DNA of 64,000 nucleotides from Candidatus Bathyarchaeia archaeon (GTDB lineage Archaea; Thermoproteota; Bathyarchaeia; 40CM-2-53-6; DTGE01). The translations under genes were made by a program, and so were the position numbers. Position 1 is the stretch's first letter, and every line of letters starts with the position of its first letter. The stretch covers positions 1-64,000 of the forward strand of contig JAWCKG010000003.1 in the NCBI GenBank assembly GCA_038852285.1, given 5' to 3'. Positions 22,325 to 41,625 of this stretch are shown piece after piece. The notes below the pieces were generated by a model. The model searched no databases, was not told the origin of the DNA, and saw nothing but the letters and a program-made list of their open reading frames with translations.

Positions 22325-22859
22325 AGAGGGGATGCGTTAGTTAAGCTTTGGTCCTCCTTTAAGTTTGATCATCCATACTAACGCTTATGAATCCTGCAGA
22401 TTTCAATTCACCTTAACCGAGTCTAGAGTTAATTTTTATCCATGTATCATCAGGGAATCAGCAGGGTCGACGCGAACCCATAAAGCCATCATTCAAGGTT
22501 ACTTTCAGCCTTTGATTTAGGGTTCATGCGAACATTATTCCAGGCCTTATTGTAGCATTTATCTTCTGGACTCTAAGAGCTCACATATCTTTGACAAGCC
22601 ATGTGAGTCCTCCAAATATGCCCTTAAAGCCCCGTGCTTCAGTCCATCTAAAAGCCTAGGAAAGGCCTATTTAAAACCCTTGAGAGGCCTTTAAGTCGCC
22701 TATAAAGTATAAGAGAAGAAAATAAACATCTAACAATGGCCAAAAATTCACATTGTTTCCCGTAAACTTAAATTAAACTTGAATGGATGAGCAATTTTGG
22801 GCGCAAAATTTAAATTTTTATGCGTATTATCTTTTTTTCTCGCGAAGGAAGGAGATTTG
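22325..22859. other. Intergenic region between hydA and carbamate kinase
   Basis: About 530 bases without a convincing gene. It holds two inverted repeats: GCGTTAGT/ACTAACGC at 22334-22341 and 22377-22384, and CTCACAT/ATGTGAG at 22580-22607. In the second, GGACTC (22568-22573) can alternatively pair with GAGTCC (22605-22610), giving mutually exclusive stems. AGGCCT-containing repeats occur at about 22645-22700. A/T-rich candidates for the arcC TATA box lie at 22664-22672 and 22807-22819. Confidence 0.45.
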
Positions 22860-24805: not shown

Positions 24806-24815
24806 GCTTATATAG
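24806..24815 (+). promoter_or_regulatory. TATA box for BMP-family binding protein gene
   Basis: GCTTATATAG is a close match to the archaeal TATA box. It predicts transcription start near 24837, which places the GTG at 24815 inside the promoter and so favours the TTG at 24848 as the true start. Confidence 0.6.
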
Positions 24816-24847
24816 TGTTCGAAGCAAAAAACAAAAAGGGTGTTTTT

Positions 24848-26254
24848 TTGTCTAAGGAAAAAGTTGAGGAGGCAAAAACGACGTCTAAGATAACAAGAAG
24901 GCAATTTGCCGCAGGCGTTGCCATAGCTGTTGCCTCTGGCGCCGTTGGGGCTGTCATTGGTGGCACTGCTTTCCCAAGGGTCAAACCGGGAGAGGTTGTT
25001 ACGAGAGAAGTTACGAAAACTGTTACGAAAGAGGTTGGGAAAACGGTTGAAGTTGAGCGAAAGCTTACTCTGGGTTTTGTTTTGGGAGGTTATGTGTCAG
25101 GATCTACTTGGGACGGCCGATTCATTGTGGGTGCAGAGCGATTAAAAGCGCTTTATCCTTGGTTCGACTACGCCTACGATGAGGGAGTAGTGCTTGGAGG
25201 GAGAGACCCCGCTGCGTCGGCTAGGGACCTCATCGAGACGAAGGGAGCGGACCTCGTCGATAGTAGCTGGGAGCCTGGGGGCGTACCTGCATTCCACACG
25301 TTGGCGAAGGAATACCCAGATGTCTACTTTTTTGATACCATAGGAAGCGATATTTCTTCGGAAAGAAATTTCTCGAGGTACTTTATACGACAATATCAGG
25401 CGATGTATCTGGAAGGCCTCGTGGCGGGGGCGTTGACTAAATCGAATAAGATAGGTGTATCTGTAGGCCCTGTATGTGTTCAGAACTTCAGGCGAATGGC
25501 CGCCTTCTACTTAGGAATAAAGGAAGCGAATCCAGCTGCAAAGCTTTACATCAAGTACGTGGGAGAGTGGTACAAGCCTGAGGTGGAGAGGGATGTTTCA
25601 CTAGCCCTAGCAGATCTTGGAGTCGATGTTCTAACTAACTACACAGACTCCACGGCTCCCCTTGAGGTCTGTAAAGGTAGAGGAATCTGGTATGTAGGTA
25701 AAGACACGGATATTGTGAGCATAGGTAACAAAGCCTTGAATATGGATATCATAGGGAAAGAACCTTGGGGGACCACGGATGTGGTAGCGGTTTCATTCGA
25801 TACCCGTTGGGAAGTGCTGTGGAATTACTACCTAAAAGAGTACAGGGTTGGCATTAAAAACCCAGCCAGATTAGTGTTCCTTGGCATGGATGATTACATA
25901 TCTCTGCCCGCTGATAACCCGTATGTGCCTGGAGAAACTAAGTTGTTGGCCGTTGACTTACAGACTAATGGTAAGATAGGCGTCGACGCCATAAGTCCAA
26001 AGGCAAGAGCGAATATACCTGGCGAGTTAATAGAGCTGATCGAGAATAGAAGGGCCCAGATGATGGCAGGAGTATGGGATCCATTCTTCGAGTACCAATT
26101 AGTTAGTGGTGGAAAGGGCATAGAAATACCAGAGCTTAAACTAACAGTTCCACCTAAAGGGACGGTGGTTAAACCCGCAAGAACAGTGGCCAGCGATGAT
26201 TTTCTGCTCGCAAAACTCAACTTCCAACTTGATGGCATAGAGCTGATCGAGTAA
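24848..26254 (+). CDS. BMP/PnrA-family nucleoside-binding protein of ABC importer
   Basis: A 468-residue extracytoplasmic substrate-binding protein of the basic-membrane-protein (BMP/PnrA) family, which binds purine nucleosides in characterised members. The N-terminus has a twin-arginine-like 'TRRQFAAGVAIAVASGAVGA', suggesting export by Tat and membrane anchoring. A Thr/Lys/Val-rich linker (about 50-80) precedes the binding domain that starts 'LTLGFVLGGYVSGSTWDG'. The TTG start is set by the TATA box at 24806-24815 and a GGGTG site. It converges on the permease, ATPase and DUF2877 genes, which complete the transporter. Ligand could be a purine nucleoside, free base or a related heterocycle. 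Confidence 0.88.
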   Translation: MSKEKVEEAKTTSKITRRQFAAGVAIAVASGAVGAVIGGTAFPRVKPGEVVTREVTKTVTKEVGKTVEVERKLTLGFVLGGYVSGSTWDGRFIVGAERLKALYPWFDYAYDEGVVLGGRDPAASARDLIETKGADLVDSSWEPGGVPAFHTLAKEYPDVYFFDTIGSDISSERNFSRYFIRQYQAMYLEGLVAGALTKSNKIGVSVGPVCVQNFRRMAAFYLGIKEANPAAKLYIKYVGEWYKPEVERDVSLALADLGVDVLTNYTDSTAPLEVCKGRGIWYVGKDTDIVSIGNKALNMDIIGKEPWGTTDVVAVSFDTRWEVLWNYYLKEYRVGIKNPARLVFLGMDDYISLPADNPYVPGETKLLAVDLQTNGKIGVDAISPKARANIPGELIELIENRRAQMMAGVWDPFFEYQLVSGGKGIEIPELKLTVPPKGTVVKPARTVASDDFLLAKLNFQLDGIELIE

Positions 26255-26290: not shown

Positions 26291-27178
26291 TTATTCCTTC
26301 ACATAGGGCAAGCCCAGCGCCGCAGGTTTTGCTAATCCCCATTTCCTTCTGAACTTTGGGCTTAAAATTATCATCAACACTATGAGAGTCGCGATGAACG
26401 GAAGCATTCTATAAACGCCTAGGGGTATGCCGAGGCCTCCTGGAAAAATCACTTCAGGTGAAACGCCAAACTGCCATATCGTTCCGAAAAGCAAGGCGCC
26501 TCCAAGCAGTATGAAAGGCTTCCACATGGAAAAGAAAACAAGAGCGAGAGCAATCCATCCCATGCCTGACGTGGGGATATGGCACCAAACTCCTAGATAA
26601 CTCAAAATTAAAAACGCGCCCGCTAAACCGCTTAGCAATCCGCCTACGATAACGGATAGGTAACGGATTCTCGTGACATTTATCCCTGTGGCCTCCGCGA
26701 CCGAAGGATCCTCCCCCACCGACCTTATTTCTAGCCCTAAACTGGTCCTGTAAAGTATAAACCAAACGATGAAAACAAGCGCAAGTGCAACGAAAAACAG
26801 TGGGGAAAAAATTCCACCAATCTTAGGAGAAGATAGCCCTGCAGGCAAGGGACCCGAGTACTTATCTGCCCACCAAGTAGCGAAACCCATCGCAAAGATC
26901 CATATTCCCATCCCGCTGATAACTTGGTCAACTTTCAACGTTATTGAGAGTAATCCGTGGAGAAAGCCGAAAATTCCCCCAATGATTGTCCCGACTATGA
27001 AACCGAGCGCGAGACTTCCACTTTGAATCGCGGTTACGAAACCAGAAGCTGCTCCCATAAGCATCATTCCTTCTATTCCAACATTGAGGATGCCCGAACG
27101 CTGATCCCATAGCTCTCCTAGAGCAGGGAGCAGGAAGATCGTCATCGTCTCGAGACATCTCACAATAAACGGCCACAT
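26291..27178 (-). CDS. ABC transporter permease, YufQ-type
   Basis: A 295-residue inner-membrane permease of the branched-chain/nucleoside importer family, with about eight hydrophobic segments. The family signature 'GMMLMGAASGFV' near the N-terminus, 'GQ..GILNVGIEG'-type opening ('SGILNVGIEGM') and 'GLLSGLAGAFL' in the middle are visible. It pairs with the next permease to form the channel. The gene ends the minus-strand operon, 10 bases after the upstream permease. Confidence 0.92.
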   Translation of the reverse strand: MWPFIVRCLETMTIFLLPALGELWDQRSGILNVGIEGMMLMGAASGFVTAIQSGSLALGFIVGTIIGGIFGFLHGLLSITLKVDQVISGMGIWIFAMGFATWWADKYSGPLPAGLSSPKIGGIFSPLFFVALALVFIVWFILYRTSLGLEIRSVGEDPSVAEATGINVTRIRYLSVIVGGLLSGLAGAFLILSYLGVWCHIPTSGMGWIALALVFFSMWKPFILLGGALLFGTIWQFGVSPEVIFPGGLGIPLGVYRMLPFIATLIVLMIILSPKFRRKWGLAKPAALGLPYVKE

Positions 27179-27188
27179 GATCTCATCC

Positions 27189-28262
27189 TCATTCCTTCTC
27201 TCGTATGATTTTGTATCGATGGAAGAACTGGAAGGCGGTGAACGTGAGGAAGAGAATTCCTATGAAAACATTATCAAGTCCAAATGTTAATCCAAGTCTT
27301 CGAACCAGAATGCTTCCCCCCTCTCTCAGTGACCCGATAAAGATCGATGCCGGGATCGCTGCGATTGGGTTTAAGAGGCAAACTAAACCAACAATTATCC
27401 CCCAGAAGGTGAAGTCCCCTATCCCCATGTACCCTTCAGGCCTTGGAATTCGGCCGAAAGAAGGGTCGCCGGCCCACATATGGTATGCGGACAGTCCAGC
27501 TATCGCCCCGCCGACGGCTGTCACGAAAATTAACATCTTAAGCGGATTCATTCCCGCATATTTGGCTGCGGTTGGATTACTGCCATAGCACCTGATCTGG
27601 TAGCCAATACTCGTTTTTGTGAGCAAAAAGTGAAATATTGCAGATATGGCAATAGCTAGAGGTACGGTAAAGGGTATCTTTCCGATTGTCGGCGCCATCG
27701 CGGATGCCGGTAAGAAACGGCTCTCGGACTCCGAAACGCCCATCCACGGTCCCCCTATAACCAAACAATAGATCAGCCAGAAAGCGATGTGATTTAACAT
27801 AATGGTCGTCACTACTTCATTTACACCCCATTTCTCCTTCAAAAATCCAGCGATTGCCCCATAGCCTGCGCCGAATAGGCTTGCTGCGATTAACATGAGT
27901 GGAATAAGAACTCCGGATGGAAGATTGCCCCAAGCGTATGCGACCGCGAACGCGCCAACCGTTCCAAGGTAAAACTGTCCTTGTACGCCCACGTTCCAAA
28001 ACCCAGTTTTAAGCGGGAGAATGAACGCAAGAGTGATAAGCAACAGGAACATGCTCCTGTGGATTGTCATCACCAGTCCGAGTCGAGGGTTAAAAGCAAA
28101 AGAGAATATATTTCTATACGCCTCTGCTACATCGGCTCCCTCCAGAAGGAGGAAGATGCTAAAAACAGCAAAGGCAACGATTATCGAAGCGGTGGATATT
28201 TTGACAGCGTCTCGACCCGTTAACACAAGCATCTTCTCAAGCTTTAGCCTTGGGATCCTCAT
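27189..28262 (-). CDS. ABC transporter permease, YufP-type
   Basis: A 357-residue permease with roughly ten hydrophobic segments. 'PLKTGFWNVGVQGQFYLG', 'GAIAGFLKEKWGVNEVVTTIMLN' and 'GYQIRCYGSNPTAAKYAGM' are characteristic of the larger permease of BMP-type nucleoside importers; only short runs are cited. It sits between the ATPase gene (16 bases upstream) and the smaller permease gene. Confidence 0.92.
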   Translation of the reverse strand: MRIPRLKLEKMLVLTGRDAVKISTASIIVAFAVFSIFLLLEGADVAEAYRNIFSFAFNPRLGLVMTIHRSMFLLLITLAFILPLKTGFWNVGVQGQFYLGTVGAFAVAYAWGNLPSGVLIPLMLIAASLFGAGYGAIAGFLKEKWGVNEVVTTIMLNHIAFWLIYCLVIGGPWMGVSESESRFLPASAMAPTIGKIPFTVPLAIAISAIFHFLLTKTSIGYQIRCYGSNPTAAKYAGMNPLKMLIFVTAVGGAIAGLSAYHMWAGDPSFGRIPRPEGYMGIGDFTFWGIIVGLVCLLNPIAAIPASIFIGSLREGGSILVRRLGLTFGLDNVFIGILFLTFTAFQFFHRYKIIREKE

Positions 28263-28277
28263 TAGCAGTCACCTCGC

Positions 28278-29888
28278 TTATGGCTCCTCCGCCGGTGCGC
28301 CAGCCATCATCGCCCCTATGCTTTCTTTTCTCGCTTTTTCCGCTGGAACGATGCTCACAAACCTGCCTTCATAGATAGGTGCTATTCTATCGCTCATTTG
28401 CAGAACCTCGTCTAGATCCTCGGAGACCAGCAAAATTCCCATTCTTTCTTCTTTGCAGGCCATCAATTTGTTTCGAACGAACTCAGTTGCACCCACATCT
28501 AGTCCATGCGTGGGTAGATTAGCGATCAGAAGCCTCATGGTCCTTGGAATTATTCGCGCTAAAATCAACTTCTGCAAGTTCCCTCCAGAGAGGTGCGCCG
28601 CCTTTGTGTCAATGCTGGGGGCTGTTACATCGAATTCGGAAATGACTTTTTCAGCATGTTCACGGATCTTCTTGTAATTCAGAAGGCCGCGCTTGGAAAA
28701 TTCTTCGTCAAACCAAAGGTTCATCGCGATGTTTTCGACCAGTGAAAACCCTCCGACGCTGACCTCTACGCGCTCAGGGGGGATATACCCTATGCCCATC
28801 TTCAACCTTTCGAGAACCGAGGCGCCGGTGATGTCGCTGCCCTGAAAAACTATCTTCCCCCCTTCAGGTTTGCGGAGGCCAGCCAAGACCTCAGCCAATT
28901 CATGTTGCCCGTTACCGCTGACTCCCGCTATTCCGAAGATTTCACCTTCTCTGATGGAAAAAGATACGCCTTTAAGAGCCAAGACCCCTCTATCGCTTAG
29001 CGCCGAAAGGTTCTCCACTCGTAGTACCTCTTTTCCAATTTTCACCTCGGGCTTTTTCACCCTAAAGAGAACCTCCCTTCCAACCATATACTCAGCCAAG
29101 GCCTCCATCGTAGCCTCATCCCTCTTAAGACGCTGCACCACCTTTCCCTTTCTGAGAATGGTGACCCTATCGCTTACCTTGAGCACCTCGGGCAATTTAT
29201 GGGTGATAAAGGGGATGATAGCAAGTTCGTTCATAGCCATTGCCCGCAGGGATTTTAAGAATTCTTCGGTTTCAAGAGGAGTTAAAACTGAAGTTGGCTC
29301 ATCGAATATCAAGAGCTTTGCGCCCCGATAGAGGGCCTTTAAAATCTCCACCAACTGCTGTTCTCCAGCGGAGAGCTGCCAAACCGTCGCGTTGAGGTCT
29401 ATTTTAAAACCATATTTCCTGCAGAGTTCCTTTACCTCACCCTCGGCCCTCCTCATATCCGGAATTTTCTCAGTCTTCGGATGCCCGAGGACTATATTTT
29501 CAAGAACGGTGTGGGCCGGTATCAACTTTCGATGCTGGTGGACCATCCCTATTCCTAGGTTTATGGCGTCTAAAGGCGATTTGAATTTGACCCTCCTCCC
29601 GCGGACGTAGATCTCCCCTTCGTCGGGTTGTAATAATCCGAATAAAATGTTCATCAAGGTGGTCTTTCCAGCGCCATTCTCCCCGAGGACGGCGTGGACC
29701 TCGCCAGCTTTTATCTCAAAATCTATGTGATCGTTAGCGACAACCCCTGGAAACCTCTTTGTGATCCCTCTCGCCTCCAAGACCGTTTCACCACGCCTCA
29801 ACCCTTCCAGAAGGCCGCTCAACGCTTGTTTCCCGCTCTGAGGTTTCCTCCGCACAAAAAGATCCTTTTTCTGAATGAGAACCGACAA
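28278..29888 (-). CDS. ABC importer ATPase with two nucleotide-binding domains, YufO/RbsA-type
   Basis: A fused double ATPase of about 536 residues energising the nucleoside importer. The first domain has Walker A 'GENGAGKTTL', signature 'LSAGEQQLVEIL' and Walker B 'LLIFDEPTS'. The second has the degenerate Walker A 'GVSGNGQHEL' and signature 'LSGGNLQKLILAR', as usual for this family, with 'ANLPTHGLDVGA' in place of a standard Walker B. I choose TTG 29888, one base beyond the DUF2877 stop and preceded by AGAGGTG, over GTG 29897. This arrangement makes translation of the ATPase coupled to DUF2877. Confidence 0.9.
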   Translation of the reverse strand: MSVLIQKKDLFVRRKPQSGKQALSGLLEGLRRGETVLEARGITKRFPGVVANDHIDFEIKAGEVHAVLGENGAGKTTLMNILFGLLQPDEGEIYVRGRRVKFKSPLDAINLGIGMVHQHRKLIPAHTVLENIVLGHPKTEKIPDMRRAEGEVKELCRKYGFKIDLNATVWQLSAGEQQLVEILKALYRGAKLLIFDEPTSVLTPLETEEFLKSLRAMAMNELAIIPFITHKLPEVLKVSDRVTILRKGKVVQRLKRDEATMEALAEYMVGREVLFRVKKPEVKIGKEVLRVENLSALSDRGVLALKGVSFSIREGEIFGIAGVSGNGQHELAEVLAGLRKPEGGKIVFQGSDITGASVLERLKMGIGYIPPERVEVSVGGFSLVENIAMNLWFDEEFSKRGLLNYKKIREHAEKVISEFDVTAPSIDTKAAHLSGGNLQKLILARIIPRTMRLLIANLPTHGLDVGATEFVRNKLMACKEERMGILLVSEDLDEVLQMSDRIAPIYEGRFVSIVPAEKARKESIGAMMAGAPAEEP

Positions 29889-29889
29889 T

Positions 29890-30912
29890 TCATACACCTC
29901 TTAGAGATGGCGTGTTATCACTACTCTTTGTGCTAACTATTATTTGCTCACATTTTTCCCGATCCATGGAATTTAGACATCCATACATGGATAAACCGAG
30001 GTGAAGCCCGAGTAGAACCCCAACAACCGTATCGATCCCCGAAGTTTCACCTATTCTTGAAACTCTTTCGAACTCCATTTTTACATCCTCGGCCGTGCCC
30101 CCAAGTATCGACTCAAGTAATTTCTCTACGGCCTCATTTACCTCGCCGTTGGCTGCGTGTCCCAGCAACCGCTGGCTTATCAATGTCGTTTTTCTCACCC
30201 TACCTACAATCGCCTCATTCATCGCCCTGACGCGGTCGAGGTCCCCGCCAAGCGAGTTGGCGATCCACCAGTTTGCGGCCATGAACCCTGCCAGTGCGTC
30301 GTCAGCGGAAGGAGAAAGCCCGAAGCCTAGCCCTATAAGTCTTTGGGCGCTTTCCTCTACACCTCGCACATCACCTGTTCTCGCCGATTTTACCAGGTTT
30401 ACCAGACGCGGCAGAATGGTCTCGATTACCAGGTCTGAATAAGACACTTCTGGCACGATCCCGGAGACTATCTCTTCAACATGGGGAAGTAATTGCCCCA
30501 GCCCCTCAGGTTTGCTCTTATTCGCTGCAAGTTGCTTCACCACCTCCAGGTTGCGCTTGATGAGTTCAGAGCTAAGGCATCGTTCAGAACAGGTTTTCGG
30601 TTGCCAAAGCTTCACGTCTTCCAACGAGATTTCAAGCACCTCACCGACACGCATTCGATCACCCACTCGCCGAACTCGCATTCCTCTGCGGATGCCGAGC
30701 GAGGGCATACTTTCGCTTGGGAGCATGTCGGTGATTAAATTGATCGGGCTTCGTAAGATGTCGCTGCAACCTATTCCCACAAGCTTCCCTTCGATCAAGA
30801 TGTTGAAGACGCGCTCGAAGACGCTGTGAACTTCACCCTCAGTGCTTGCCCTTAACGCTCTGAACGCGGCTGGACCAATCGAGATAGCCCTAACGATTCG
30901 CAGAAAATCCAT
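29890..30912 (-). CDS. DUF2877 protein, AllH-like carbamoyltransferase component
   Basis: A 340-residue protein of the DUF2877 family. The family motifs are clear: 'GLGFGLSPSADDALAG' near 203-218 (usual form GLGxGLTPSGDD) and 'GETSGIDTVVGVLLGL' near 299-314. The E. coli homologue AllH (YlbF) acts with AllF (FdrA) and AllG (DUF1116) as oxamate carbamoyltransferase in anaerobic allantoin use. Both partners are encoded 3.4-7.4 kb away on the opposite strand. Here the stop codon TGA nearly touches the start of the importer ATPase, linking carbamoyl transfer with substrate uptake. The acceptor/donor in this organism need not be oxamate. Confidence 0.88.
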   Translation of the reverse strand: MDFLRIVRAISIGPAAFRALRASTEGEVHSVFERVFNILIEGKLVGIGCSDILRSPINLITDMLPSESMPSLGIRRGMRVRRVGDRMRVGEVLEISLEDVKLWQPKTCSERCLSSELIKRNLEVVKQLAANKSKPEGLGQLLPHVEEIVSGIVPEVSYSDLVIETILPRLVNLVKSARTGDVRGVEESAQRLIGLGFGLSPSADDALAGFMAANWWIANSLGGDLDRVRAMNEAIVGRVRKTTLISQRLLGHAANGEVNEAVEKLLESILGGTAEDVKMEFERVSRIGETSGIDTVVGVLLGLHLGLSMYGCLNSMDREKCEQIIVSTKSSDNTPSLRGV

Positions 30913-30935: not shown

Positions 30936-31523
30936 TTAAATCCTTTCACCCACTAGCTTGCCATCCTTTATCCGGTCCCACTGTTGCTTCGTCATCGTTT
31001 GCAACATTGTGCCGAAGTGGCTCTTCTTGTCAGGGTGTGGAGTGAAACCATACGCTTGGAACAGCTTGCGGCCACCTATCAAGCTCTCAGCACTTGCCTC
31101 CACGACATCTACGCCTAGCACATCAAAATACATTTCGAGCTTGCAGGGCCAAAGATAGGCACCAATCTGAGCTCCTCGTTTCAGCGTTGTTGTGTGCAGA
31201 CTGCAGCCTGTCTTAGGATCCCTTAAAGCACCATTGGTAACCCCAACCACCTTGCCATCCACCCTGCCAACAAGGTTAAAGTGGCTTTCCGGCGGCAATC
31301 CCCACATGGGTCTGTTCTCACGCCAAAGATAGAACTCTGTTATCAGCTCTGCTGTAACTAGGTCGAATAAATCATTGTGGATGGTGAGGTTTGGTATGAG
31401 CGCGTCGCAGACTTCCTCTACCTCGCTCTTCTCCATGCTCCTGACCGTCATCTCCTCCCCTGTAGGCAACGTTATTCTACGTGGCGGATAAGGCTTCATC
31501 ACTTTACTCCAATCGTATTCCAT
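30936..31523 (-). CDS. Probable GNAT-fold protein of unknown substrate
   Basis: A 195-residue protein from the ATG at 31523, which has a strong GGAGGTGA site; the open frame starts ten codons earlier. I do not recognise a specific family. 'LVGRVDGKVVGVTNGAL' and the late 'GGRKLFQAYGFTPH' resemble strands and the C-terminal helix-loop of GNAT acyltransferases. An acyl-CoA-using partner would suit the neighbouring thiolase-like and DUF35 genes. It lies between DUF35 and DUF2877 in the operon, with 23 bases to DUF2877. Confidence 0.6.
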   Translation of the reverse strand: MEYDWSKVMKPYPPRRITLPTGEEMTVRSMEKSEVEEVCDALIPNLTIHNDLFDLVTAELITEFYLWRENRPMWGLPPESHFNLVGRVDGKVVGVTNGALRDPKTGCSLHTTTLKRGAQIGAYLWPCKLEMYFDVLGVDVVEASAESLIGGRKLFQAYGFTPHPDKKSHFGTMLQTMTKQQWDRIKDGKLVGERI

Positions 31524-31549
31524 TCTTTCACCTCCATTTTTAATGATCT

Positions 31550-31888
31550 TCACTCCAATGGTTCAAACTTGAATCCATAAATATCTTTTTCATTTAATTT
31601 TCGAAGCTTCCCCCAGACGGGCTTCAGCAACATCCCAATCTTTGGATAGTCGGTGCTCACCTGGCCTAGCATTCTAATGCCGCTGAAATCAGCTATGCCG
31701 AGCGTCAGGGGCGGCATCTCTATTCCCTGCGGTAACGTATATAGCTTAGTATACGTGGTCAACTTGCCCACTTTAGGCAGCTCAACTTCCTCAAACTCAG
31801 TTGCTTTACAGCTTAGACATCGGTCATGCTTAGTGCTCATCACCCGCCCACAGGCTTTACACTTGAATCCAACGAATTTTTGCTCCAT
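31550..31888 (-). CDS. DUF35 zinc-ribbon/OB-fold acyl-CoA-associated protein
   Basis: A 112-residue protein of the ChsH2-like DUF35 family. The rubredoxin-like zinc ribbon has 'CKACGR' and 'CLSCKA'; the OB part begins 'GKLTTYTKLYTLP'. In archaea and bacteria these proteins bind acyl-CoA and bridge thiolase-type partners, as in the thiolase/HMG-CoA synthase complex. I place the start at ATG 31888, three bases past the thiolase-like stop; the longer frame overlaps it. Pairing with the upstream thiolase homologue is expected. Confidence 0.88.
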   Translation of the reverse strand: MEQKFVGFKCKACGRVMSTKHDRCLSCKATEFEEVELPKVGKLTTYTKLYTLPQGIEMPPLTLGIADFSGIRMLGQVSTDYPKIGMLLKPVWGKLRKLNEKDIYGFKFEPLE

Positions 31889-31890
31889 GA

Positions 31891-33051
31891 TTACCATCCC
31901 CTCTCCAATACATGGATCACAGTGTTGTTTCCAAAACCGCCAAAGTTGCAAGCTAAAGCCCACTTTGGGTTTTTGACTTGCCGCTCACCACATTCTCCAC
32001 GGAGTTGCCAAACCAGCTCAACCACTTGGGCTACACCCGTGGCCCCGAGAGCATGGCCCCGCGCTTTCAAACCTCCCGAAGGATTGATGGGCAGTTTTCC
32101 ATCAAGGGCCGTTAACCCCTTCTCCACCGCCAGGTGCCCTTTTCCCTTCTCAAAAAATCCTATATCCTCACTTTCAGCTATCTCCAAAATTTCAAACGCG
32201 TCATGCACCTCAGCTACGTCGATGTCATCTGCCGAAATTCCCGCCATCTTGAACGCCTTCTGAGCAGCAACTTTAACCGACTTTAGCACGGTCGGGTCCT
32301 CCCTTTCCTGGAGCGCTTGCACATCAGTGGCCTGGCCTAATCCGGCGATCCTCACCGGCTTGTCCGTGAACTTCTTAGCCTTTTCAAGTGGACATAGAAC
32401 CAGAGAAGCCGCTCCGTCGCTGATCGGGCAGACATAATAGAGACGTAGGGGGTCGGCGATAACTGCTGAGCTCATCGCCCCTTCAACTGTGCAGGCTCGC
32501 TGTATGTGGGCATAAGGATTCTTAAGCGCATTGGCGTGGTTTTTCACCGCAACCATCGCGAGATGCCTCTCCGTTAACCCATAGCATTCCATGTAAAGCC
32601 TGGCGAGCATTCCTCCCATCGCTGGAAGGGTCGCACCGTGAATGTACTCCGCTGTCGGGTGGAGCATGGTTGCCACTAGATCAGTTACGATGTCTGTGTC
32701 GGCCGTGGTCATCTTCTCCCCACCGGTTACGAGAACCATGTCATAGCATCCGGAAGCTACCGCCATGAAAGCATTCTTAAGCGCGGATCCTCCGGCAGCG
32801 GGCCCATTCTCGATTCTGTCAGCGGCGGCCGGTACCAACGCTATCCTATCGACCAATGAGCTGGCCACCGCGGTTTGATGCGAAATTTCACCTGCCAGCA
32901 TGCTTGAAACATAGACGGCGTCAAAGTCCTCTTTTACGACGTTGGCATGTTCTATCGCGCGTAGCGATGCTTCTGCCAATATGTCCATCAAGTCCCCAGG
33001 TGCTCGACCGAACTTCGTCATTCCTGCTCCAATGATCGCCACATCTCTCAT
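31891..33051 (-). CDS. Thiolase-superfamily protein (SCPx-like) lacking the nucleophilic cysteine
   Basis: A 386-residue protein of the SCP2-type thiolase family. 'EVHDAFEILEIAE' and 'GGLKARGHALGATGVAQ' carry the two conserved His regions, and the C-terminal 'ACNFGGFGNN' keeps the second Cys. The acyl-accepting Cys, expected three residues before the first Gly of 'ENxCAxG', is instead Pro84 in 'ENGPAAGGSA'. The DNA reads CCC there, so this is not an ambiguous call. Claisen or thiolytic chemistry of the usual kind is thus unlikely; a structural or non-decarboxylative acyl-CoA role with DUF35 is more plausible. It is the second gene of the operon after the cyclase-family gene. Confidence 0.88.
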   Translation of the reverse strand: MRDVAIIGAGMTKFGRAPGDLMDILAEASLRAIEHANVVKEDFDAVYVSSMLAGEISHQTAVASSLVDRIALVPAAADRIENGPAAGGSALKNAFMAVASGCYDMVLVTGGEKMTTADTDIVTDLVATMLHPTAEYIHGATLPAMGGMLARLYMECYGLTERHLAMVAVKNHANALKNPYAHIQRACTVEGAMSSAVIADPLRLYYVCPISDGAASLVLCPLEKAKKFTDKPVRIAGLGQATDVQALQEREDPTVLKSVKVAAQKAFKMAGISADDIDVAEVHDAFEILEIAESEDIGFFEKGKGHLAVEKGLTALDGKLPINPSGGLKARGHALGATGVAQVVELVWQLRGECGERQVKNPKWALACNFGGFGNNTVIHVLERGW

Positions 33052-34344: not shown

Positions 34345-35910
34345 TTGGCAATTAAAAGTGTGGTGCGTAAAGGCGATTACCGGGATTCTGTCATGCTTAT
34401 GCGCATTTCTAAGGAGCTCGAAGGGCTAGAGGGCGTGAAAAGAGCTTCAGCGATGATGGGCACAGACAACAACAAGCAGCTACTGAAAGATGCGGGCCTG
34501 CACACCGACGAGGCACTCGAGGCGGGCCCGAACGATTTGATAATCGTAGTCGATGCTGTAAGCGAGGTGTTAGCGAGCCAAGCGCTTTCGAAAGTAGATG
34601 ACCTGCTCGCCGTGAAGAAGGAAGAAAGAGGCGAAATTACATATAAAACTCTAAGCTCTGCGCTTTCAGCGATACCTGATGCAAACTTTGTAATCATTTC
34701 TACCCCAGGGGAGTTCGCGGCGCGGGAGGCGATGCGAGGACTTAACGCTGGCAAGCACGTCATGATATTCAGTGACGCTGTGCCCATCCAAGAGGAAATT
34801 GAACTGAAGAAAATAGCGTACAGTAAAAGGTTACTTTTACTAGGCCCCGAAGCGGGGACTTCAATCATCGACGGAGTCGGGCTTGGATTCGCGAACGCCG
34901 TTAAGCGTGGCCCCATCGGAGTGGTTGGGGCGGCCGGTACCGGCATCCAAGAGGTTACGCGGTTAATTGATGTTGAATCTGGAATCACCCACGCGCTCGG
35001 CGTCGGTGGTCGAGACCTATCGCGAGAGGTCGGGGGGCTAGGGATGCTCGGCGCTCTCAGATTTCTAGCCGCCGACCCTGAAACAAAAGTCATCGTCATC
35101 GTTGCGAAGGCCCCTACAATGGGCGTCGCGGAAAGCATTCTCAAAGCGGCGGAGGAAACACGCAAGCCGGTTGTTGCTTGTATGCTTGGTGCTTCAAAAA
35201 CACTTGTCACTCGACATGGCGCGATCTATGCAGCGACGCTTGCAGACGCGGCCGCTAAAGCTATTGCCCTCGTTCAAGGCAAAAAGCCGAAAGAGGTTAC
35301 GTTCACTGCCCCACGAAAGTGGATCGAAGCGATAGTTAAGCGCGAAATTAAAAATTTCGCTGAGGGTCAAAAATATATCCGCGGGCTCTTCTCGGGAGGA
35401 ACGTTGTGCACCGAGGCCATGCTGATCCTACGGGAGCTTGTTGGCGATATTTACTCGAACATTCCGCTCGAGTCGAGACTCAAGCTGCCGAGCACTGATA
35501 AGAGCGAGCGCCACACATGCATTGACATGGGTACTGAGGAGTTTACTCGGGGGGTTCCTCACCCAATGATTTACTTTAAGCCCAGATGTGAACGCCTGCT
35601 ACGCGAAGCGAAGAACCGGGATGTCGCGGTTGTGCTGCTGGATGTGGTCCTCGGATACGGGGCGAACCCCGACCCAGCGGGTGAGCTCGTGTGGGCGATC
35701 GCCGAAGCGAAAAAGACGATGGCGGAGTCGAACAGGTACTTGTCGATTGTCGCATCGATCTGCGGCACGGCACATGACCCACAAGGCTTTGAAGTGCAGA
35801 AGAAGAAGCTTGAAGGTGCGGGTGTCGTAGTGATGCCGAGCAACGCAGAGGCTGCTAGAATTGCAGCGCTGATAGCCACGAGGGGCAAGGCGAGGGGGAA
35901 GTTGAAATGA
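34345..35910 (+). CDS. fdrA: FdrA family protein, AllF-like carbamoyltransferase component
   Basis: A 521-residue FdrA protein, a relative of succinyl-CoA synthetase alpha/beta folds. Features include the CoA-ligase-like 'GPIGVVGAAGTGIQEVTRLI' and 'GGRDLSREVGG' in the first half, and 'FSGGTLCTEAMLIL' near residue 350, which marks FdrA. In E. coli AllF works with AllG and AllH to transfer a carbamoyl group to phosphate, giving carbamoyl phosphate. TTG start with AGGGGTTGAG. It overlaps DUF1116 by four bases (ATGA), so the two are translationally coupled. DUF2877 is on the opposite strand across the divergent promoter region. Confidence 0.93.
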   Translation: MAIKSVVRKGDYRDSVMLMRISKELEGLEGVKRASAMMGTDNNKQLLKDAGLHTDEALEAGPNDLIIVVDAVSEVLASQALSKVDDLLAVKKEERGEITYKTLSSALSAIPDANFVIISTPGEFAAREAMRGLNAGKHVMIFSDAVPIQEEIELKKIAYSKRLLLLGPEAGTSIIDGVGLGFANAVKRGPIGVVGAAGTGIQEVTRLIDVESGITHALGVGGRDLSREVGGLGMLGALRFLAADPETKVIVIVAKAPTMGVAESILKAAEETRKPVVACMLGASKTLVTRHGAIYAATLADAAAKAIALVQGKKPKEVTFTAPRKWIEAIVKREIKNFAEGQKYIRGLFSGGTLCTEAMLILRELVGDIYSNIPLESRLKLPSTDKSERHTCIDMGTEEFTRGVPHPMIYFKPRCERLLREAKNRDVAVVLLDVVLGYGANPDPAGELVWAIAEAKKTMAESNRYLSIVASICGTAHDPQGFEVQKKKLEGAGVVVMPSNAEAARIAALIATRGKARGKLK

Positions 35911-37295
35911 TGTCGGATCGACCGAAGCTGATAAACGTCGGGGCATACTCCTTCTACGAGAGTATGCGTGCTCAGGGAGCCGATGCTGTTCACGTAGACT
36001 GGCGTCCCCCAGCGGGAGGCGATCCGGAGTTAGCGCGAATGTTGACAAGATTGGAGCGTCCTGAAATAGATGAGGCTAACAGGAAAGCCGTTGCAAAAAT
36101 TCTCGCCGCGAAGCCTATGCTTATTGGCATTAAAGCAGCAAAGGATGTAATCTCCGGAATGACTGAACATACGATCCTGCACTCTGGGCCGCCGATTGAA
36201 TGGGAGCGGATGTCCGGCCCTATGAAGGGAGCTGTTTGGGGCGCGTTGATCTATGAGGGATTGGCGAAGGATCAGAAGGAGGCGGATGAGCTCGTTAAGA
36301 GCGGGGAGATAAAGTTCGGAGCATGCCACGATCACGATTCCGTAGGTCCGATGGCGGGAATAATCTCGCCTTCAATGCCAGTCTTCGTCATAGAAAATCA
36401 GGAGAATGGCAATCGCGCTTACTCAAACTTCAACGAGGGGCTTGGTAAGGTGCTACGGTACGGGGCCTATGAAGAGAGCGTGATCGCGCGGCTGAAGTGG
36501 ATTGAGAAAACATTGGCACCCATCCTGGCGGACGCGCTCAAGCGCTCGGGACCCATCGACCTCAAGGCTATAATGGCACAGGCGCTACACATGGGTGATG
36601 AGCTTCACTGTAGAAACGTTGCGTCTAGCTTGATATTCCTGAAATCCATGGCCCCCCACATCGCAGAAACAGGTTACGATAGGAAGGAGGTGGGGGAGGT
36701 GATAAAATTTATGGGTGAGAATTCTCTTTTCTTCCTCAACCCAGCGATGGCCGCGGCCAAGGCGATGGTGGACGCCGCACACAACATTAAGCACTCCACA
36801 GTTGTCATAACTCTCTCGAGAAACGGCACAGACTTCGGAATAAAGGTGAGCGGACTCGGCAACCGTTGGTTCACGGCGCCAGCGGAGATACCTAAGTTGC
36901 TTTGCTTTCCAGGGTTCACGGAAGCCGACGCGAACCCTGACATCGGAGACAGCGCGATCATGGAAACAGCTGGATTCGGGAGCTTCGCATGCGCCGCCTC
37001 ACCGGCGGTGGTTCAAGTCGTCGGCGGATCAGCAGAAGAAGCCATAGAACATACCCGGGAAATGTGGGAGATATGCCTGGCGAAAGACAAGAGCTTCTCC
37101 ATCCCCTTCCTGAACTTTGAGGGCACACCGCGAGGCATCGATTTGAGAAAGGTAATGGACACGGGAATCCTCCCGATTATCAACACTGGCGTCGCTCACA
37201 AGAAGCCTGGCTTCGGCACAGTTGGCTTCGGAATTCTCAGGGCGCCGATAGAGTGCTTTAAGAAAGCGTTGAAAGCGATGGCTGAAAAGTACTAA
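35907..37295 (+). CDS. DUF1116 protein, AllG-like carbamoyltransferase component
   Basis: A 462-residue DUF1116 (YlbE/AllG) protein. Family features seen are 'VHVDWRPPAGGDPELAR' near residue 27-43, 'GACHDHDSVGPMAGIISPSMPVF' (key residues HDHDSVGPM near 148-156) and 'NRWFTAPAEIP'. In the AllFGH enzyme this is an essential subunit for carbamoyl transfer between oxalurate and phosphate. Coupled to fdrA by an ATGA overlap. After its stop 670 bases of spacer separate it from the molybdenum hydroxylase genes. Confidence 0.93.
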   Translation: MMSDRPKLINVGAYSFYESMRAQGADAVHVDWRPPAGGDPELARMLTRLERPEIDEANRKAVAKILAAKPMLIGIKAAKDVISGMTEHTILHSGPPIEWERMSGPMKGAVWGALIYEGLAKDQKEADELVKSGEIKFGACHDHDSVGPMAGIISPSMPVFVIENQENGNRAYSNFNEGLGKVLRYGAYEESVIARLKWIEKTLAPILADALKRSGPIDLKAIMAQALHMGDELHCRNVASSLIFLKSMAPHIAETGYDRKEVGEVIKFMGENSLFFLNPAMAAAKAMVDAAHNIKHSTVVITLSRNGTDFGIKVSGLGNRWFTAPAEIPKLLCFPGFTEADANPDIGDSAIMETAGFGSFACAASPAVVQVVGGSAEEAIEHTREMWEICLAKDKSFSIPFLNFEGTPRGIDLRKVMDTGILPIINTGVAHKKPGFGTVGFGILRAPIECFKKALKAMAEKY

Positions 37296-37965
37296 TCCTT
37301 AACGGGGGCGTCTATCACCCTCCAAAGCCACATGTAACTCTTTTTTAATAAACCAAATTAGAGATTTCACGTCAAAGATGCTCGAAGAAGACTCTATTTA
37401 CCATGCTCGATGCTCAAGTCATTTATATGCTTGAACTTGCGAAAGCTAGAAACCCGTAAGGCGGTCACATAAAGGCTATTCGACCTAGAGTACGGTATTA
37501 GTTTAATATTAGTTTACATGTCCGACCTTAAGAGCCCAGTGGACGTAGCTCTGGTTTAAATCGACGGTGTGAAATGCGACGGATCATTGCGGAGGAGAGA
37601 GATGGCCTGAGTTGATGACAAGCCCCTTTAGGTCTAGGTGCTATCGCTAGGGATTTTATTATGAATAAGTTCCCCTGCAAGGATAGAAAGGCACGAGACG
37701 AGAAGGTGTGGTGTGTGAGCATAAATGGCGAAATTCTAGAAATGGACTGGAAACATCTCACCAAGCGGACACGCAATTCCGTGCATGAAGCTCGCGTAGG
37801 AGCCGTAAGCGCCTATGGCTGGGATTAAGTCTGCTTTTCCTCACGCTCTTCCAAACGAAATCCAAGCATCAATCATACTTAAATAGGGATTTAGCGTCTT
37901 CCTATTTATCATAACCTCCGCCAAATGTCGATGAAAGAAAGACTTTGGCATAAAGTGAGGAAGTG
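37296..37965. other. Long intergenic region before molybdenum hydroxylase genes
   Basis: About 670 bases. It contains a possible 55-codon gene at 37661-37828 and TATA candidates CTTAAATAGG (37878-37887) and CCTATTTATC (37901-37910) for the downstream operon. The rest shows short open stretches interrupted by stops, which may be remains of an inserted element; I found no terminal repeats. Confidence 0.4.
37661..37828 (+). CDS. Small open reading frame, uncertain
   Basis: A 55-residue frame starting at ATG with GGGAT eight bases upstream. The product has balanced, protein-like composition ('KVWCVSINGEILEMDWKHL') and the same frame is open for another 14 codons upstream. I do not recognise it. 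It may be a gene fragment left by rearrangement between DUF1116 and the hydroxylase operon. Confidence 0.3.
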   Translation: MNKFPCKDRKARDEKVWCVSINGEILEMDWKHLTKRTRNSVHEARVGAVSAYGWD

Positions 37966-40314
37966 ATGAAAAAATATTTGTATATTGGTAAGGATGTCCC
38001 TCGCGTTGACGATTTTGAAAAAGTAACGGGCACAGCCCAATACACCGCGGACTTAAGACTTCCGGGGATGCTCTACACTAGGCTACTGAAAAGCCCCCAC
38101 CCCCATGCCCGCCTGATTAGCATAAAAACGAGCGAGGCCGAGAAGCTTCCCGGTGTACGCGCGATTCTAACGGGCAAAGAGGTCCCTTACAAGTTCGGAA
38201 TCTACATGCAGGATAAGAGTGTGCTCGCTCAAGAAAAAGTTCGCTACGTCGGTGAGCCTGTGGTCGCGGTCGCGGCCAACACCGAAGAGATCGCAGAGCA
38301 AGCAGTCGAGCTCATAAAGGTAGAGTATGAGGAGTTGCCCGCTGTCTTCGACCCGAGAGATGCCATAAAAGACGGTGCGCCGCTGGTGCATGAACGCCTT
38401 CACGAGTACATGCATGCTCCCTTCATCTTCCCGGAATCCCACACAAATATCGCCAATCACTTCAAGCTCCGCAAAGGCGATGTGGAGCGGGGCTTCAAGG
38501 AAGCAGATGTGATCGTAGAGAACGAGTTTTACCAGCCCCAAGTTCAGAACGTGTCGATGGAGACTCAAAACTCCATTGGGCAGTGGCTTCCGAATGGGCA
38601 GATAAACATTTGGACGAGTGCTCAATCGCCCTTCGCCGTTCGACATCTCCTGAGCGTGGGATTGGGCGTTCCCATCCATAAGATCAACGTTGTGGTTCCC
38701 TATGTTGGTGGCGCGTTTGGAGGAAAGGCGGGGCTTCACTGGGAACCTTTAGCGGTCCTTCTCTCGAGGAAGGCTGGTGGAAGACCGGTGAGGCTGATGA
38801 TGACTCGTGAGGAGCAATTCAACACAGCTGCCGTCCGTCAGGGTCTCTACGCGCGCATCAAGACAGGAGTTAAACGAGACGGAAAAATAGTGGCCGAAGA
38901 AATCCTCTACATTTGGGATGCCGGTGCCTACGCGGATTACGGCGTGAATATAGGGAGAGCCGCAGGTTACTCCTGCACGGGGCCGTACGAGGTCCCAAAT
39001 GTCAAATGTGATAGCTTGACGGTCTACACCAACCACCCTTATGGCACTGCCTACAGAGGATTTGGTCATGCAGAGTTTCACTTCGCAGTAGAGCGGCAAA
39101 TGGACCTCGTCGCTAGGGCGATCAGCATGGATCCGTTAACGTTCCGTTTGAAGAACGTTGCGCTACCTGGAAGCGTCACCGCTACTGGAGAGAGGCTTTG
39201 CAAGGATGCCGGACGAGTGGACGAATGCCTCAAAGCCGTTGCAGAAGCGATAGGGTGGAAAAAGAAAAGGAAGAAGCAAAAGCAGGTAGGGGGAAAGCTC
39301 AGCGGAATAGGGATAGCTGCGCTTTGGAAAGCCCCGGCGATGCCATCCTTCACCTCTTCTTCCGCGATTGTGAAGCTCAACGAGGATGGAAGCATCACCC
39401 TCTCCATTAGCCTCACGGAAATTGGTCAGGGGACTCCGACAGCCTTTGCCCAGATGGTGGCAGAGGAGATGCAGATGCCGATCGAGAAGATCAAAGTTGT
39501 CACCAAGCGAGAAACGGATTTCAGCCCATACTCCTGGCAGACCGTGGCCAGTCGCGGTCTCTTCATGGATGGCAACGCCGTGCTCAGGGCTGTTGAGGAT
39601 CTCAAGAAAAAGGTGAAGGCCACGGCGTCCGAGTTATTAGGGATGCCATTGGAGGGGCTGGAGATAGCGAACGAGCGGGTTTTTGTAGCTAGAGAGCCTG
39701 AGAAGGGAATACCTCTGAGCGCGATTGCGACTTGCGGCGTTTTGCCCGACGGAAGGGGCATCCACGGCCCCATACTCGGGTACGGGTATTACACTGCTGA
39801 AGGACTAACCAACCTCGACCCGGAAACAGGGCAGGGGTTGCCGGCGCTTGTGTGGACCTTCGGGGCTCAGGGGGCTGAAGTGGAGGTGGATACGGAGACA
39901 GGCGAGGTGAGGGTGCTCAAGGTAGCCTCCGCATTCGACATCGGGAAAGCCATCAATCCGTTACTAGTTAAGGGCCAGGTATATGGCGGCATTGTGCAGG
40001 GCGTTGGGAGCGCGCTTATGGAAGAGTTCATCTTTGACAGGAGGGGGGCCTTACTGAACAACAACCTAACTGATTACAAGATCTGCAGGGCTCAGGATAT
40101 TCCAGACGAATTCATATTCATCCCCATCGAGAACCCTCAGCTCAATGCCCCCTATGGCGCGAGGGGCGTCGGTGAACATGTAAGGATATCTATTGAGCCG
40201 GCGATAGCGAACGCCATCTACGATGCCACTGGAGTTGACCTCTTCGAGATCCCGATGACTCGAGAAAAAGTTTGGAAAGCGCTTCAGAAGGTGAAGGAAA
40301 ATGCCGCTACCTAA
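37966..40314 (+). CDS. Molybdenum hydroxylase large subunit (xanthine dehydrogenase family)
   Basis: A 782-residue molybdopterin-binding catalytic subunit of the xanthine dehydrogenase/aldehyde oxidase/CO dehydrogenase family. 'GGAFGGK' near 252-258, 'AYRGFGHAEFHFAVERQMD' near 363-381 and the C-terminal 'GARGVGEHVRISIEPAIANAI', whose Glu is the catalytic base, are present. The active-site loop of CO dehydrogenase (AYRCSFR) is absent, so this is a hydroxylase. Substrate is probably a purine or other N-heterocycle, given the transporter and carbamoyl genes. ATG 37966 follows GAGGAAGTG. It overlaps the FAD-subunit gene by 14 bases. Confidence 0.93.
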   Translation: MKKYLYIGKDVPRVDDFEKVTGTAQYTADLRLPGMLYTRLLKSPHPHARLISIKTSEAEKLPGVRAILTGKEVPYKFGIYMQDKSVLAQEKVRYVGEPVVAVAANTEEIAEQAVELIKVEYEELPAVFDPRDAIKDGAPLVHERLHEYMHAPFIFPESHTNIANHFKLRKGDVERGFKEADVIVENEFYQPQVQNVSMETQNSIGQWLPNGQINIWTSAQSPFAVRHLLSVGLGVPIHKINVVVPYVGGAFGGKAGLHWEPLAVLLSRKAGGRPVRLMMTREEQFNTAAVRQGLYARIKTGVKRDGKIVAEEILYIWDAGAYADYGVNIGRAAGYSCTGPYEVPNVKCDSLTVYTNHPYGTAYRGFGHAEFHFAVERQMDLVARAISMDPLTFRLKNVALPGSVTATGERLCKDAGRVDECLKAVAEAIGWKKKRKKQKQVGGKLSGIGIAALWKAPAMPSFTSSSAIVKLNEDGSITLSISLTEIGQGTPTAFAQMVAEEMQMPIEKIKVVTKRETDFSPYSWQTVASRGLFMDGNAVLRAVEDLKKKVKATASELLGMPLEGLEIANERVFVAREPEKGIPLSAIATCGVLPDGRGIHGPILGYGYYTAEGLTNLDPETGQGLPALVWTFGAQGAEVEVDTETGEVRVLKVASAFDIGKAINPLLVKGQVYGGIVQGVGSALMEEFIFDRRGALLNNNLTDYKICRAQDIPDEFIFIPIENPQLNAPYGARGVGEHVRISIEPAIANAIYDATGVDLFEIPMTREKVWKALQKVKENAAT

Positions 40315-41161
40315 ATTTGACTACCTTAGGCCGGAGACGGTCGAGGAGCTCACCGCCATACTCGCCAAGTATGGGGCAGACGCGAAGCTATTGGCTGGAG
40401 GAACCGACCTACTTGTGTTGATGAGGGAAAGGCTCATCCGGCCGAGGTATGTGATAGACATTAAGGGGATTAGGGACTTGCACAAGCTCTCATGGGACGA
40501 AAAAGAGGGGCTGACGATAGGCGCCACTGTGACGCTGAACGAGTTGATAGCCTCAGAGGTAGTTAGGGAAAGCTTTAACGTGCTCTGGAAGGCGGCGAGC
40601 ACGCTTGCAGACCCGACGATAAGGAACCGCGCGACGCTTGTCGGGAATATTTGCAACGCTTCGCCAGCAGCCGACACCGCTCCAGCGTTGCTTGTGCTCG
40701 ATGCCGAAGTGGAAGTTGTGAACGCGAATGGCAGGAGGATAATTCCCATCCGAGATTTCTTCACGGGGGTTAAGCGCACATCTCTTAAGCTGGGTGAGTT
40801 CGTCGAGGCTGTGCGGATACCGAAGTCGCCTGATGGTGCTAGGGGAGATTACCTTAAGTGGGGGCGCACGCGCGGCGAGGACTTAGCCGTCGTAGGTGTA
40901 GCGGCCTTGGTAGCGAATTCAGGGAAAGAGATCATGCGCATCGCCTTGTCATCGGTGGCTCCAACGCCGTTGCGCATTTTTGAGGTCGAGGAAATCCCAA
41001 TGGGGGGGTGCTCCCCAGCTGAGCAAATTAGTAAAGCGGTTTCAATTGTCAGAGAGAAGATTTCCCCGATTGCAGATGTACGGGGCGGGAGAGAGTACCG
41101 AACACACATGGCGGGTGTGCTCACCAAGCGCATCCTTGAAGGCCTATTGGGGGTGAGCTGA
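40301..41161 (+). CDS. Molybdenum hydroxylase FAD-binding subunit
   Basis: A 286-residue medium subunit passing electrons from the iron-sulfur clusters to an acceptor. The FAD motifs 'LLAGGTDLLVLM' near 31-42 and 'TIRNRATLVGNICNASPAADTAP' (key TIRNRATLVGN near 107-117) are typical. The physiological acceptor may be NAD+ or ferredoxin; the sequence does not say. The start overlaps the large-subunit gene, and the final TGA overlaps the ATG of the next gene. Confidence 0.94.
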   Translation: MPLPKFDYLRPETVEELTAILAKYGADAKLLAGGTDLLVLMRERLIRPRYVIDIKGIRDLHKLSWDEKEGLTIGATVTLNELIASEVVRESFNVLWKAASTLADPTIRNRATLVGNICNASPAADTAPALLVLDAEVEVVNANGRRIIPIRDFFTGVKRTSLKLGEFVEAVRIPKSPDGARGDYLKWGRTRGEDLAVVGVAALVANSGKEIMRIALSSVAPTPLRIFEVEEIPMGGCSPAEQISKAVSIVREKISPIADVRGGREYRTHMAGVLTKRILEGLLGVS

Positions 41162-41625
41162 TGTCGAGGCACAGGATTTCCCTCAAGGTGAACGGACTTC
41201 GACATGAGGTTGATGTAGAGGCGAATAAGACCCTCCTCCAGCTACTCCGCGACGACTTGGAGTTGACCGGAACAAAGCTCGCGTGTGAGCGTGGAGACTG
41301 CGGGCTTTGCACCGTACTGATCGACGGGATGCCGGTGAAGTCGTGCTTAGTGCTCGCAGTCGAGGTCGACGGGCACGAAGTGACCACAATAGAAGGTATT
41401 TCTGGCGAGGAACTCAACTCCGTGCAGAAAGCCTTTATAAAACATGGGGCAGTGCAGTGCGGCTTCTGCACTCCCGCGTTTATCCTAACCGCGACAGCTC
41501 TACTCAAGCGCAACCCGAAGCCTACTGAAGAAGAGGTGAAAGAAGCCATCGGTGGCATTCTCTGCAGATGTACAGGTTATCGGCAAATCATAGACGCGGT
41601 TTTAGACGCCGCTAAAGAAAGATAG
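41161..41625 (+). CDS. Molybdenum hydroxylase [2Fe-2S] subunit
   Basis: A 154-residue small subunit with two clusters. The plant-ferredoxin-type site is 'CERGDCGLCTVLIDG' near 41-55 and the helical-domain cluster is 'CGFCTPAFI' with 'CRCTGYRQI' at the end. It joins the large and FAD subunits in an alpha-beta-gamma enzyme. ATG overlaps the previous stop by one base. Confidence 0.95.
   Translation: MSRHRISLKVNGLRHEVDVEANKTLLQLLRDDLELTGTKLACERGDCGLCTVLIDGMPVKSCLVLAVEVDGHEVTTIEGISGEELNSVQKAFIKHGAVQCGFCTPAFILTATALLKRNPKPTEEEVKEAIGGILCRCTGYRQIIDAVLDAAKER

Follow-up and report, generated by a model that had tools for sequence, protein, structure and literature searches.

In archaea, the thiolase of the thiolase/HMG-CoA synthase/DUF35 complex (6esq/6et9) possesses both the nucleophilic Cys and an HDCF motif, and DUF35 is described as a partner in the archaeal acetoacetyl-CoA thiolase complex (PMC12329534). 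Thiolase-like proteins devoid of the nucleophilic Cys are already known too, namely ST0096, TbSLP, Sal and Ltp2. ST0096 from Sulfolobus tokodaii (4yzo) has Ser at the site and is given no function in the records examined. TbSLP, an SCP2-thiolase-like protein of Trypanosoma brucei (5ab4-5ab7), displays the thiolase fold but lacks the Cys residues of thiolases and has a YDCF motif; the title of entry 5ab7 denotes a structure with malonyl-CoA, which TbSLP decarboxylates slowly, at 0.005 per second (PMC12329534). The steroid aldolases Sal (9myr) and Ltp2 (6ok1) are DUF35-bound, have lost the nucleophile (Gly in CtSal), act on acyl-CoA substrates and use a Tyr-based motif for aldol chemistry; CtSal, which is thiolase-like and lacks the nucleophilic Cys, did not decarboxylate malonyl-CoA according to the same paper (PMC12329534). 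The KS-Q decarboxylase domains of polyketide synthases (e.g. GfsA, 7VEF), which belong to a different subfamily, also have the nucleophile replaced and a pair of His. These domains work on acyl-carrier-protein substrates, have Gln at the site and are not known to need a Cys for decarboxylation. Their two His hold the substrate carboxylate (PMC12267109).

A thiolase-like protein with proline at the nucleophile position

The window, by which we mean the whole stretch of 64,000 nucleotides analyzed here from a Candidatus Bathyarchaeia archaeon, codes on its minus strand for a thiolase-like protein of 386 amino acids (31891..33051). Matches to Thiolase_N and Thiolase_C_1, together with an AF2 model (mean pLDDT 96) that superimposes on the archaeal acetoacetyl-CoA thiolase 6et9 with a TM score of 0.96, place it in the thiolase superfamily by both domains and fold. 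Its sequence identity is 43% to the 6esq/6et9 thiolase, about 40% to ST0096, 25% to TbSLP and 24% to Sal and Ltp2. An earlier sequence-only reading of this DNA had proposed that Pro replaces the nucleophilic Cys, while both His motifs and the C-terminal Cys remain. The reading frame around the site runs ...DRIENGPAAGGSALK..., and HMMER alignments to solved thiolases pair its Pro84 (codon 32800..32802, minus strand) with the A-C-A-S-G Cys of 6esq and 7yvy and with the Ser of NTSGSGG in 4yzo. The family alignment places the residue at the same position, and no other Cys takes its place there. The Ser of ST0096 is the residue found in the Ser-type proteins L008, L016, L028 and L177 of a sister branch.

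Both active-site His expected of a functional thiolase, in the (H/N)-x-x-F and GH motifs, are observed directly: His283 in EVHDAF (codon 32203..32205, minus strand) and His333 in GHALG (32053..32055, minus strand). Each is invariant in 38/38 aligned Pro-type rows, as is the Asn of NPSGG. The nucleophilic Cys that a functional thiolase or acetyl-CoA acetyltransferase carries in its N-domain motif is absent, and a further loss that the sequence-only reading missed affects the HDCF motif, the Cys of which is present in 76/101 Cys-type rows and is Ala in every one of the 38 Pro rows. The window protein thus reads HDAF, as opposed to HDCF in 6esq/6et9, YDCF in TbSLP and the catalytic Tyr-bearing YD(C/H)(Y/F) of Sal and Ltp2, and membership in the Ltp2/Sal family is ruled out by this difference. 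The C-terminal Cys of the earlier proposal does exist as Cys368 (ACNFGGFG; codon 31948..31950, minus strand) and carries little weight: across the Pro rows this position is C in 22, V in 14, H in one and a gap in one, and in the Cys-type relatives it is mainly His or Gln. Going by this alignment, Cys368 is no retained catalytic feature of the Pro family, and its replacement by Val in 14 of the 38 rows rules it out as a substitute nucleophile. Judging from these residues, the Pro-type protein cannot be a Cys-dependent thiolase. It is also not the sole, degenerate thiolase of its genome, since a Cys-bearing copy resembling 6esq/6et9 (L002) is encoded on contig C30 with its own DUF35.

Partner genes and the surrounding cassette

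The region 31550-33051 spans the thiolase-like gene and an adjoining DUF35 gene (31550..31897, minus strand), whose start overlaps the thiolase stop. Its product combines a Zn finger with an OB fold; the OB_ChsH2_C match falls under the cut-off (22.3 against 27.1 bits), and the C-x2-C-x10-C-x2-C zinc motif characteristic of DUF35 (31808..31861, minus strand) has all four Cys invariant across 17 aligned partners. The third gene of the triad (30936..31553, minus strand) encodes a protein that the sequence-only reading called GNAT-like, and the structural comparison agrees: its AF2 model (mean pLDDT 89) matches GNAT N-acyltransferases in Foldseek (best E 7.5e-9). The window protein has no Pfam match of its own, Acetyltransf_1 matches five of the 17 family members (best E 1.2e-4), and searching the PDB with a profile of the family yielded no sequence homologue. 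No clear Pfam model covers this GNAT-fold family, which turns up repeatedly in archaeal cassettes with AllFGH, XDH and cyclase genes even where no thiolase adjoins (L109, L110, L111, L112, L113, L114, L115). The archaeal thiolase/HMG-CoA synthase/DUF35 arrangement is reproduced in its DUF35 neighbor and not in an adjacent HMG-CoA synthase, the flanking genes here coding for a cyclase and the GNAT-fold protein.

The triad lies within a cassette whose assignment to nitrogen heterocycles, already made from the letters, is upheld by family matches. On the plus strand are encoded a carbamate kinase (22797..23828; TIGR00746 above cut-off), a PnrA/BMP-like substrate-binding protein (24815..26254), AllF/FdrA (34345..35910; AllF via NF004760), AllG (35907..37295), a three-subunit molybdenum hydroxylase of the xanthine dehydrogenase family (37963..41625; below equivalog cut-offs) and an XdhC-like maturation factor (41740..42552). 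The minus strand carries a nucleoside-type ABC transporter with two permeases and an ATPase (26291..29897; the permease at 26291-27178 is assigned solely by its match to relatives), AllH, a subunit of oxamate carbamoyltransferase (29890..30912), and a cyclase-family amidohydrolase (PF04199; 33132..33959). All three subunits of AllFGH are therefore recognized in the window, by family match; two further window genes are presumably MoeA and MobA. Between 22.8 and 44.5 kb the window has no recognizable allantoinase or allantoate-type gene, and no acyl-CoA synthetase was detected among the genes scanned in the cassette.

Conservation and phyletic spread of the proline-type family

Searches with the window protein matched 261 of 300 genomes of its phylum and 40 of 41 relatives of its genome (both at 1e-60), 22 of 28 genomes of the Hadarchaeum phylum (1e-80) and 60 of 227 genomes of the phylum of the Asgard locus (1e-95), and a search of GTDB contigs gave 22 loci; only some of these matches were turned into loci and entered the family alignment. 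Among its 164 distinct rows, confined to matches of at least 330 amino acids (L035, a Pro case with a split match, L054, lacking the N-terminus, L050 and L186 being left out), the nucleophile site is C in 101, P in 38, S in 8, G in 7, T in 4, E in 3, and A, D and a gap in one each. The 38 Pro rows stand for 36 distinct genes, L106 and L107 being cut copies of L033 and L032, and L035 is a further Pro case beyond them; its genome, G433, gave no match at 1e-95 in the Asgard-phylum search. As the Pro rows come from Thermoproteota, Hadarchaeota and Asgard, a sequencing error or an oddity of one genome is ruled out; that Pro is a trait of an archaeal family had escaped the sequence-only reading.

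By a quick tree method, 37 of the Pro rows cluster (support 81) inside a 44-row clade of non-Cys proteins (support 97), with L176 outside. From this sequence comparison, archaeal thiolase-like proteins seem to have lost the Cys more widely, the change to Pro being one form of this loss and the Ser of ST0096 another. In the sister non-Cys thiolases L085, L086, L087, L088, L090 and L091 the nucleophile position holds Ala, Thr or Ser, and a DUF35 match adjoins every one of them. The residues at the lost-Cys site vary (P, S, T, A), and one common chemistry is not assured. We also observed highly divergent thiolase-like proteins in which the usual nucleophile motif is missing, adjoining ordinary or Gly-type thiolases (L064 2744-4000, L189 2663-3808). 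The window copy of the triad (30936-33051) shows 89% identity to Candidatus Hadarchaeum proteins. Because it nests among Hadarchaeota in the tree while the Cys thiolase L002 of the same genome groups with its own order, either the cassette was recently acquired by horizontal transfer or the contig was misbinned.

Gene linkages and the candidate substrate

The triad or its remains recur with AllFGH genes in L032, L034, L083, L084 and L209-L212 (among the genes listed, L212 shows no GNAT gene and L211 no DUF35 gene). Linkage to AllG is also seen at the genome level: in Hadarchaeota AllG is present in 9/11 genomes with a Pro-thiolase as against 1/11 of those tested with other types only (Fisher p 0.002, uncorrected for kinship, six genomes without a match at 1e-80 being left out: G438, G439, G441, G443, G444, G449). 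In Asgard it is found in 6/7 Pro genomes linked to GNAT versus 0/14 other Pro genomes (Fisher p 0.0001, again uncorrected; adjacency was directly seen in L204 and L205, and the other five were placed by the tree).

Several of these loci bring in genes for CoA activation: an ADP-forming CoA synthetase (an ATP-grasp/CoA-ligase pair) follows AllH in L034, an AMP-forming synthetase is located between GNAT and AllH in L083, two CoA_trans subunits adjoin AllG in L209, and a class III CoA-transferase comes after DUF35 in L085, which has an Ala-type thiolase. That unrelated CoA-activating families converge on these loci argues most strongly for an acyl-CoA as the likely substrate of the Pro-type protein. 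The gene context also points to a (methyl)malonyl-CoA-like compound, which the sequence-only reading did not note. In the Asgard loci L206 (6600-9897) and L208 (4633-7870), the Pro-thiolase gene is directly followed by those for DUF35 and for a methylmalonyl-CoA mutase subunit (above cut-off); these two loci and L207 pair the Pro-thiolase with DUF35 and have no GNAT neighbor. Other Asgard Pro loci (L203, L213) adjoin SDR or acyl-CoA dehydrogenase genes. As separate observations, L210 (5492-7889) has an aldehyde ferredoxin oxidoreductase and, by eye, a ferredoxin-like gene between GNAT and AllH, and a gene of the trimethylamine-methyltransferase family (MTTB) and a corrinoid-protein gene lie upstream of a Hadarchaeum triad (L033 4373-6546).

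With respect to the heterocycle, uridine phosphorylase is recognized in L209 (above cut-off) and L204 (under cut-off) and cytosine-deaminase-like proteins in L083, L113, L204, L205 and L209, while L034 encodes a dihydropyrimidine-dehydrogenase-like PreA, the purine-type SsnA and an allantoinase/dihydroorotase-like protein. The uridine phosphorylase, the cytosine-deaminase-like proteins and PreA would speak for a pyrimidine as the substrate of the cassette. The oxidative route of uracil breakdown passes through barbiturate and ureidomalonate, and the combination of XDH, cyclase and carbamoyltransferase may fit such a route. However, a pyrimidine is not the only possible substrate, since SsnA and PreA occur together in L034, and caution is also due because AllFGH is the oxamate carbamoyltransferase of E. 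coli with a known role in oxalurate breakdown (PMC11326118). In the literature covered, we found nothing joining uracil, barbiturate, carbamoyl phosphate and archaea. A TudS-related desulfidase-like gene, perhaps for thiouracil-type substrates, adjoins the GNAT/AllFGH cassette of L109 (5263-5880).

A carboxyltransferase in cassettes without the proline-type protein

Of the 398 genomes searched in the phylum of the window, 13 contain the gene for the GNAT-fold protein, and 11 of the 13 have no Pro-thiolase among the thiolases fetched. We observed a carboxyltransferase of the PF01039 family, similar to those of (methyl)malonyl-CoA decarboxylases, in 10 of these 11 and in none of the 14 Pro-group genomes tested (Fisher p 3e-6; in Thermoproteota alone 0/4 versus 10/11, p 0.004), the latter being 13 in which Pro was seen and G320, assigned solely through a partial gene that is 63% identical, and the Pro genome G448 being left out. 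The background frequency of PF01039 in the phylum is 213/398. In 7/10 cases (G017, G064, G104, G152, G158, G223, G410) the PF01039 gene lies at most 10 kb from that of GNAT, and L113 has near its GNAT gene those for an mmdA-like protein (such matches scoring under that model's cut-off), a Na+-pump beta subunit (above cut-off), a biotin carrier and a biotin ligase. The exception, G229, lacks both the Pro-thiolase and PF01039, and its three thiolases are of types C, C and E, with L199 put in class E by elimination as it is absent from every listed group.

The simplest reading of this distribution is that the Pro-thiolase/DUF35 pair displaced a (methyl)malonyl-CoA decarboxylase. The pattern is partly confounded by phylogeny: with 10/14 of the Pro-group genomes belonging to Hadarchaeota, kinship may explain much of it. 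The contrast repeats within two families, with G199 (Pro) set against G064, G104, G152 and G158 (G229 being without both), and G182 (Pro) against G017 and G223.

Proposed function and its alternatives

Taken together, we consider it probable that the Pro-type protein is a non-thiolytic acyl-CoA enzyme, i.e. an active enzyme with the fold of a thiolase that no longer performs thiolysis. More tentatively, and by analogy, our leading explanation is that it could be a DUF35-bound, cofactor-free decarboxylase of the (methyl)malonyl-CoA type working like the KS-Q domains, as two His and an oxyanion hole are the equipment of ketosynthase-like decarboxylases; the Pro family shares with KS-Q the replaced nucleophile and the two retained His. 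The Pro-type protein and DUF35 would form a heteromer that binds acyl-CoA. With no Cys, no acyl-enzyme would arise; instead, carboxylate and enolate would be stabilized by the oxyanion hole together with both invariant His, so that malonyl-CoA or a closely related ester such as methylmalonyl-CoA or malonamoyl-CoA might be converted to acetyl-CoA (or propionyl-CoA) and CO2. With Pro84, the active-site helix may retain its N-terminal end while the nucleophile is removed. The GNAT protein accompanies the Pro-thiolase in some cassettes and occurs in others that lack it, so it probably has no share in the decarboxylation step itself. Counting against the decarboxylase are genome G229, with its GNAT cassette and neither the Pro-thiolase nor PF01039, the window cassette with no acyl-CoA synthetase among its scanned genes, the 14 Asgard Pro genomes that have no AllG, and the failure of CtSal to decarboxylate malonyl-CoA. 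In the literature covered, from which subscription papers are mostly missing, we found neither a thiolase-like malonyl-CoA decarboxylase nor the Pro family.

The same fold, DUF35 partner and loss of the nucleophile are common to Sal and Ltp2 (Gly in CtSal; PMC12329534), so that another non-thiolytic C-C lyase, one that splits an acyl-CoA by retro-aldol or retro-Claisen chemistry, has to be weighed; Foldseek matches to 6ok1 and 9myr and the SDR and enoyl-CoA hydratase genes adjoining Asgard Pro loci agree with it. We regard it as unlikely: the aldolases use the Tyr of YDCY/YDHF (PMC12329534), whereas the Pro family has HDAF, with His in 38/38 rows and Ala at the Cys/His position, and the heterocycle genes seen yield no expected beta-hydroxyacyl-CoA. 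The sequence-only reading had left the choice between a non-thiolytic acyl-CoA role and a scaffold role, and the former is the part that likely stands. A catalytically silent CoA-binding or scaffold protein joining DUF35 and the GNAT protein would be consistent with the loss of both the nucleophile and the HDCF Cys and with the stability of the triad; yet it is improbable given the invariance of the active-site His and Asn in all 38 rows from three phyla and the Asgard loci in which no GNAT neighbor is there to be joined.

Breakdown of purines via oxalurate and oxamate, with the Pro-thiolase acting on an oxalyl- or oxamoyl-type CoA ester, would accord with the E. coli role of AllFGH, with the XDH-type genes of the window and with SsnA and the allantoinase/dihydroorotase-like protein of L034. 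However, the decarboxylation of oxalyl-CoA normally depends on thiamine diphosphate, no allantoinase or allantoate-type gene was recognized between 22.8 and 44.5 kb of the window and pyrimidine genes recur beside the triad; we hold this reading, too, to be improbable. Slightly more improbable still is a noncovalent acyltransferase resembling the DUF35-bound PhlABC/MucABC, which would transfer its acyl group either to the GNAT protein or to a ureido compound: PhlC and MucABC are among the Foldseek matches and the adjoining gene encodes a CoA-using fold, but PhlC retains its Cys, the C88S entry 9skm implies a Cys88 in a relative, and some cassettes have the GNAT gene with no adjoining thiolase; we hold this acyltransferase to be the least probable of those considered.

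Returning to the decarboxylase, its place in a pathway could be as follows. A pyrimidine would be imported as nucleoside or base, oxidized by XDH and opened by the cyclase; AllFGH would cleave the product with phosphate to yield carbamoyl phosphate, from which carbamate kinase would form ATP, and the leftover C3 acid would be made into a CoA thioester and decarboxylated, closing an energy-conserving route. We offer, as a speculative scheme that is rather doubtful in its entirety, that a Pro-for-Cys, DUF35-bound, cofactor-free (methyl)malonyl-CoA decarboxylase ends an energy-conserving archaeal pyrimidine fermentation whose ring-opening of the base gives carbamoyl phosphate (ATP) and a malonyl thioester, that a biotin-dependent, Na+-pumping decarboxylase substitutes for it in other archaea, and that Asgard reuses it beside methylmalonyl-CoA mutase.

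Implications

Thiolase genes receive the annotation acetyl-CoA acetyltransferase by fold alone, and NF004720 ('thiolase domain-containing'), which matches the window protein above its cut-off, accepts a protein incapable of Cys chemistry. A well-bounded Pro family with recurring partners offers a tractable example of a thiolase redirected to different acyl-CoA reactions. It also provides a testable pathway for how anaerobic archaea lacking the biotin decarboxylase complete the breakdown of the carbon skeleton that AllFGH leaves behind. If true, this would add a new type of malonyl-CoA decarboxylase and a pyrimidine-based formation of ATP in energy-poor archaea.
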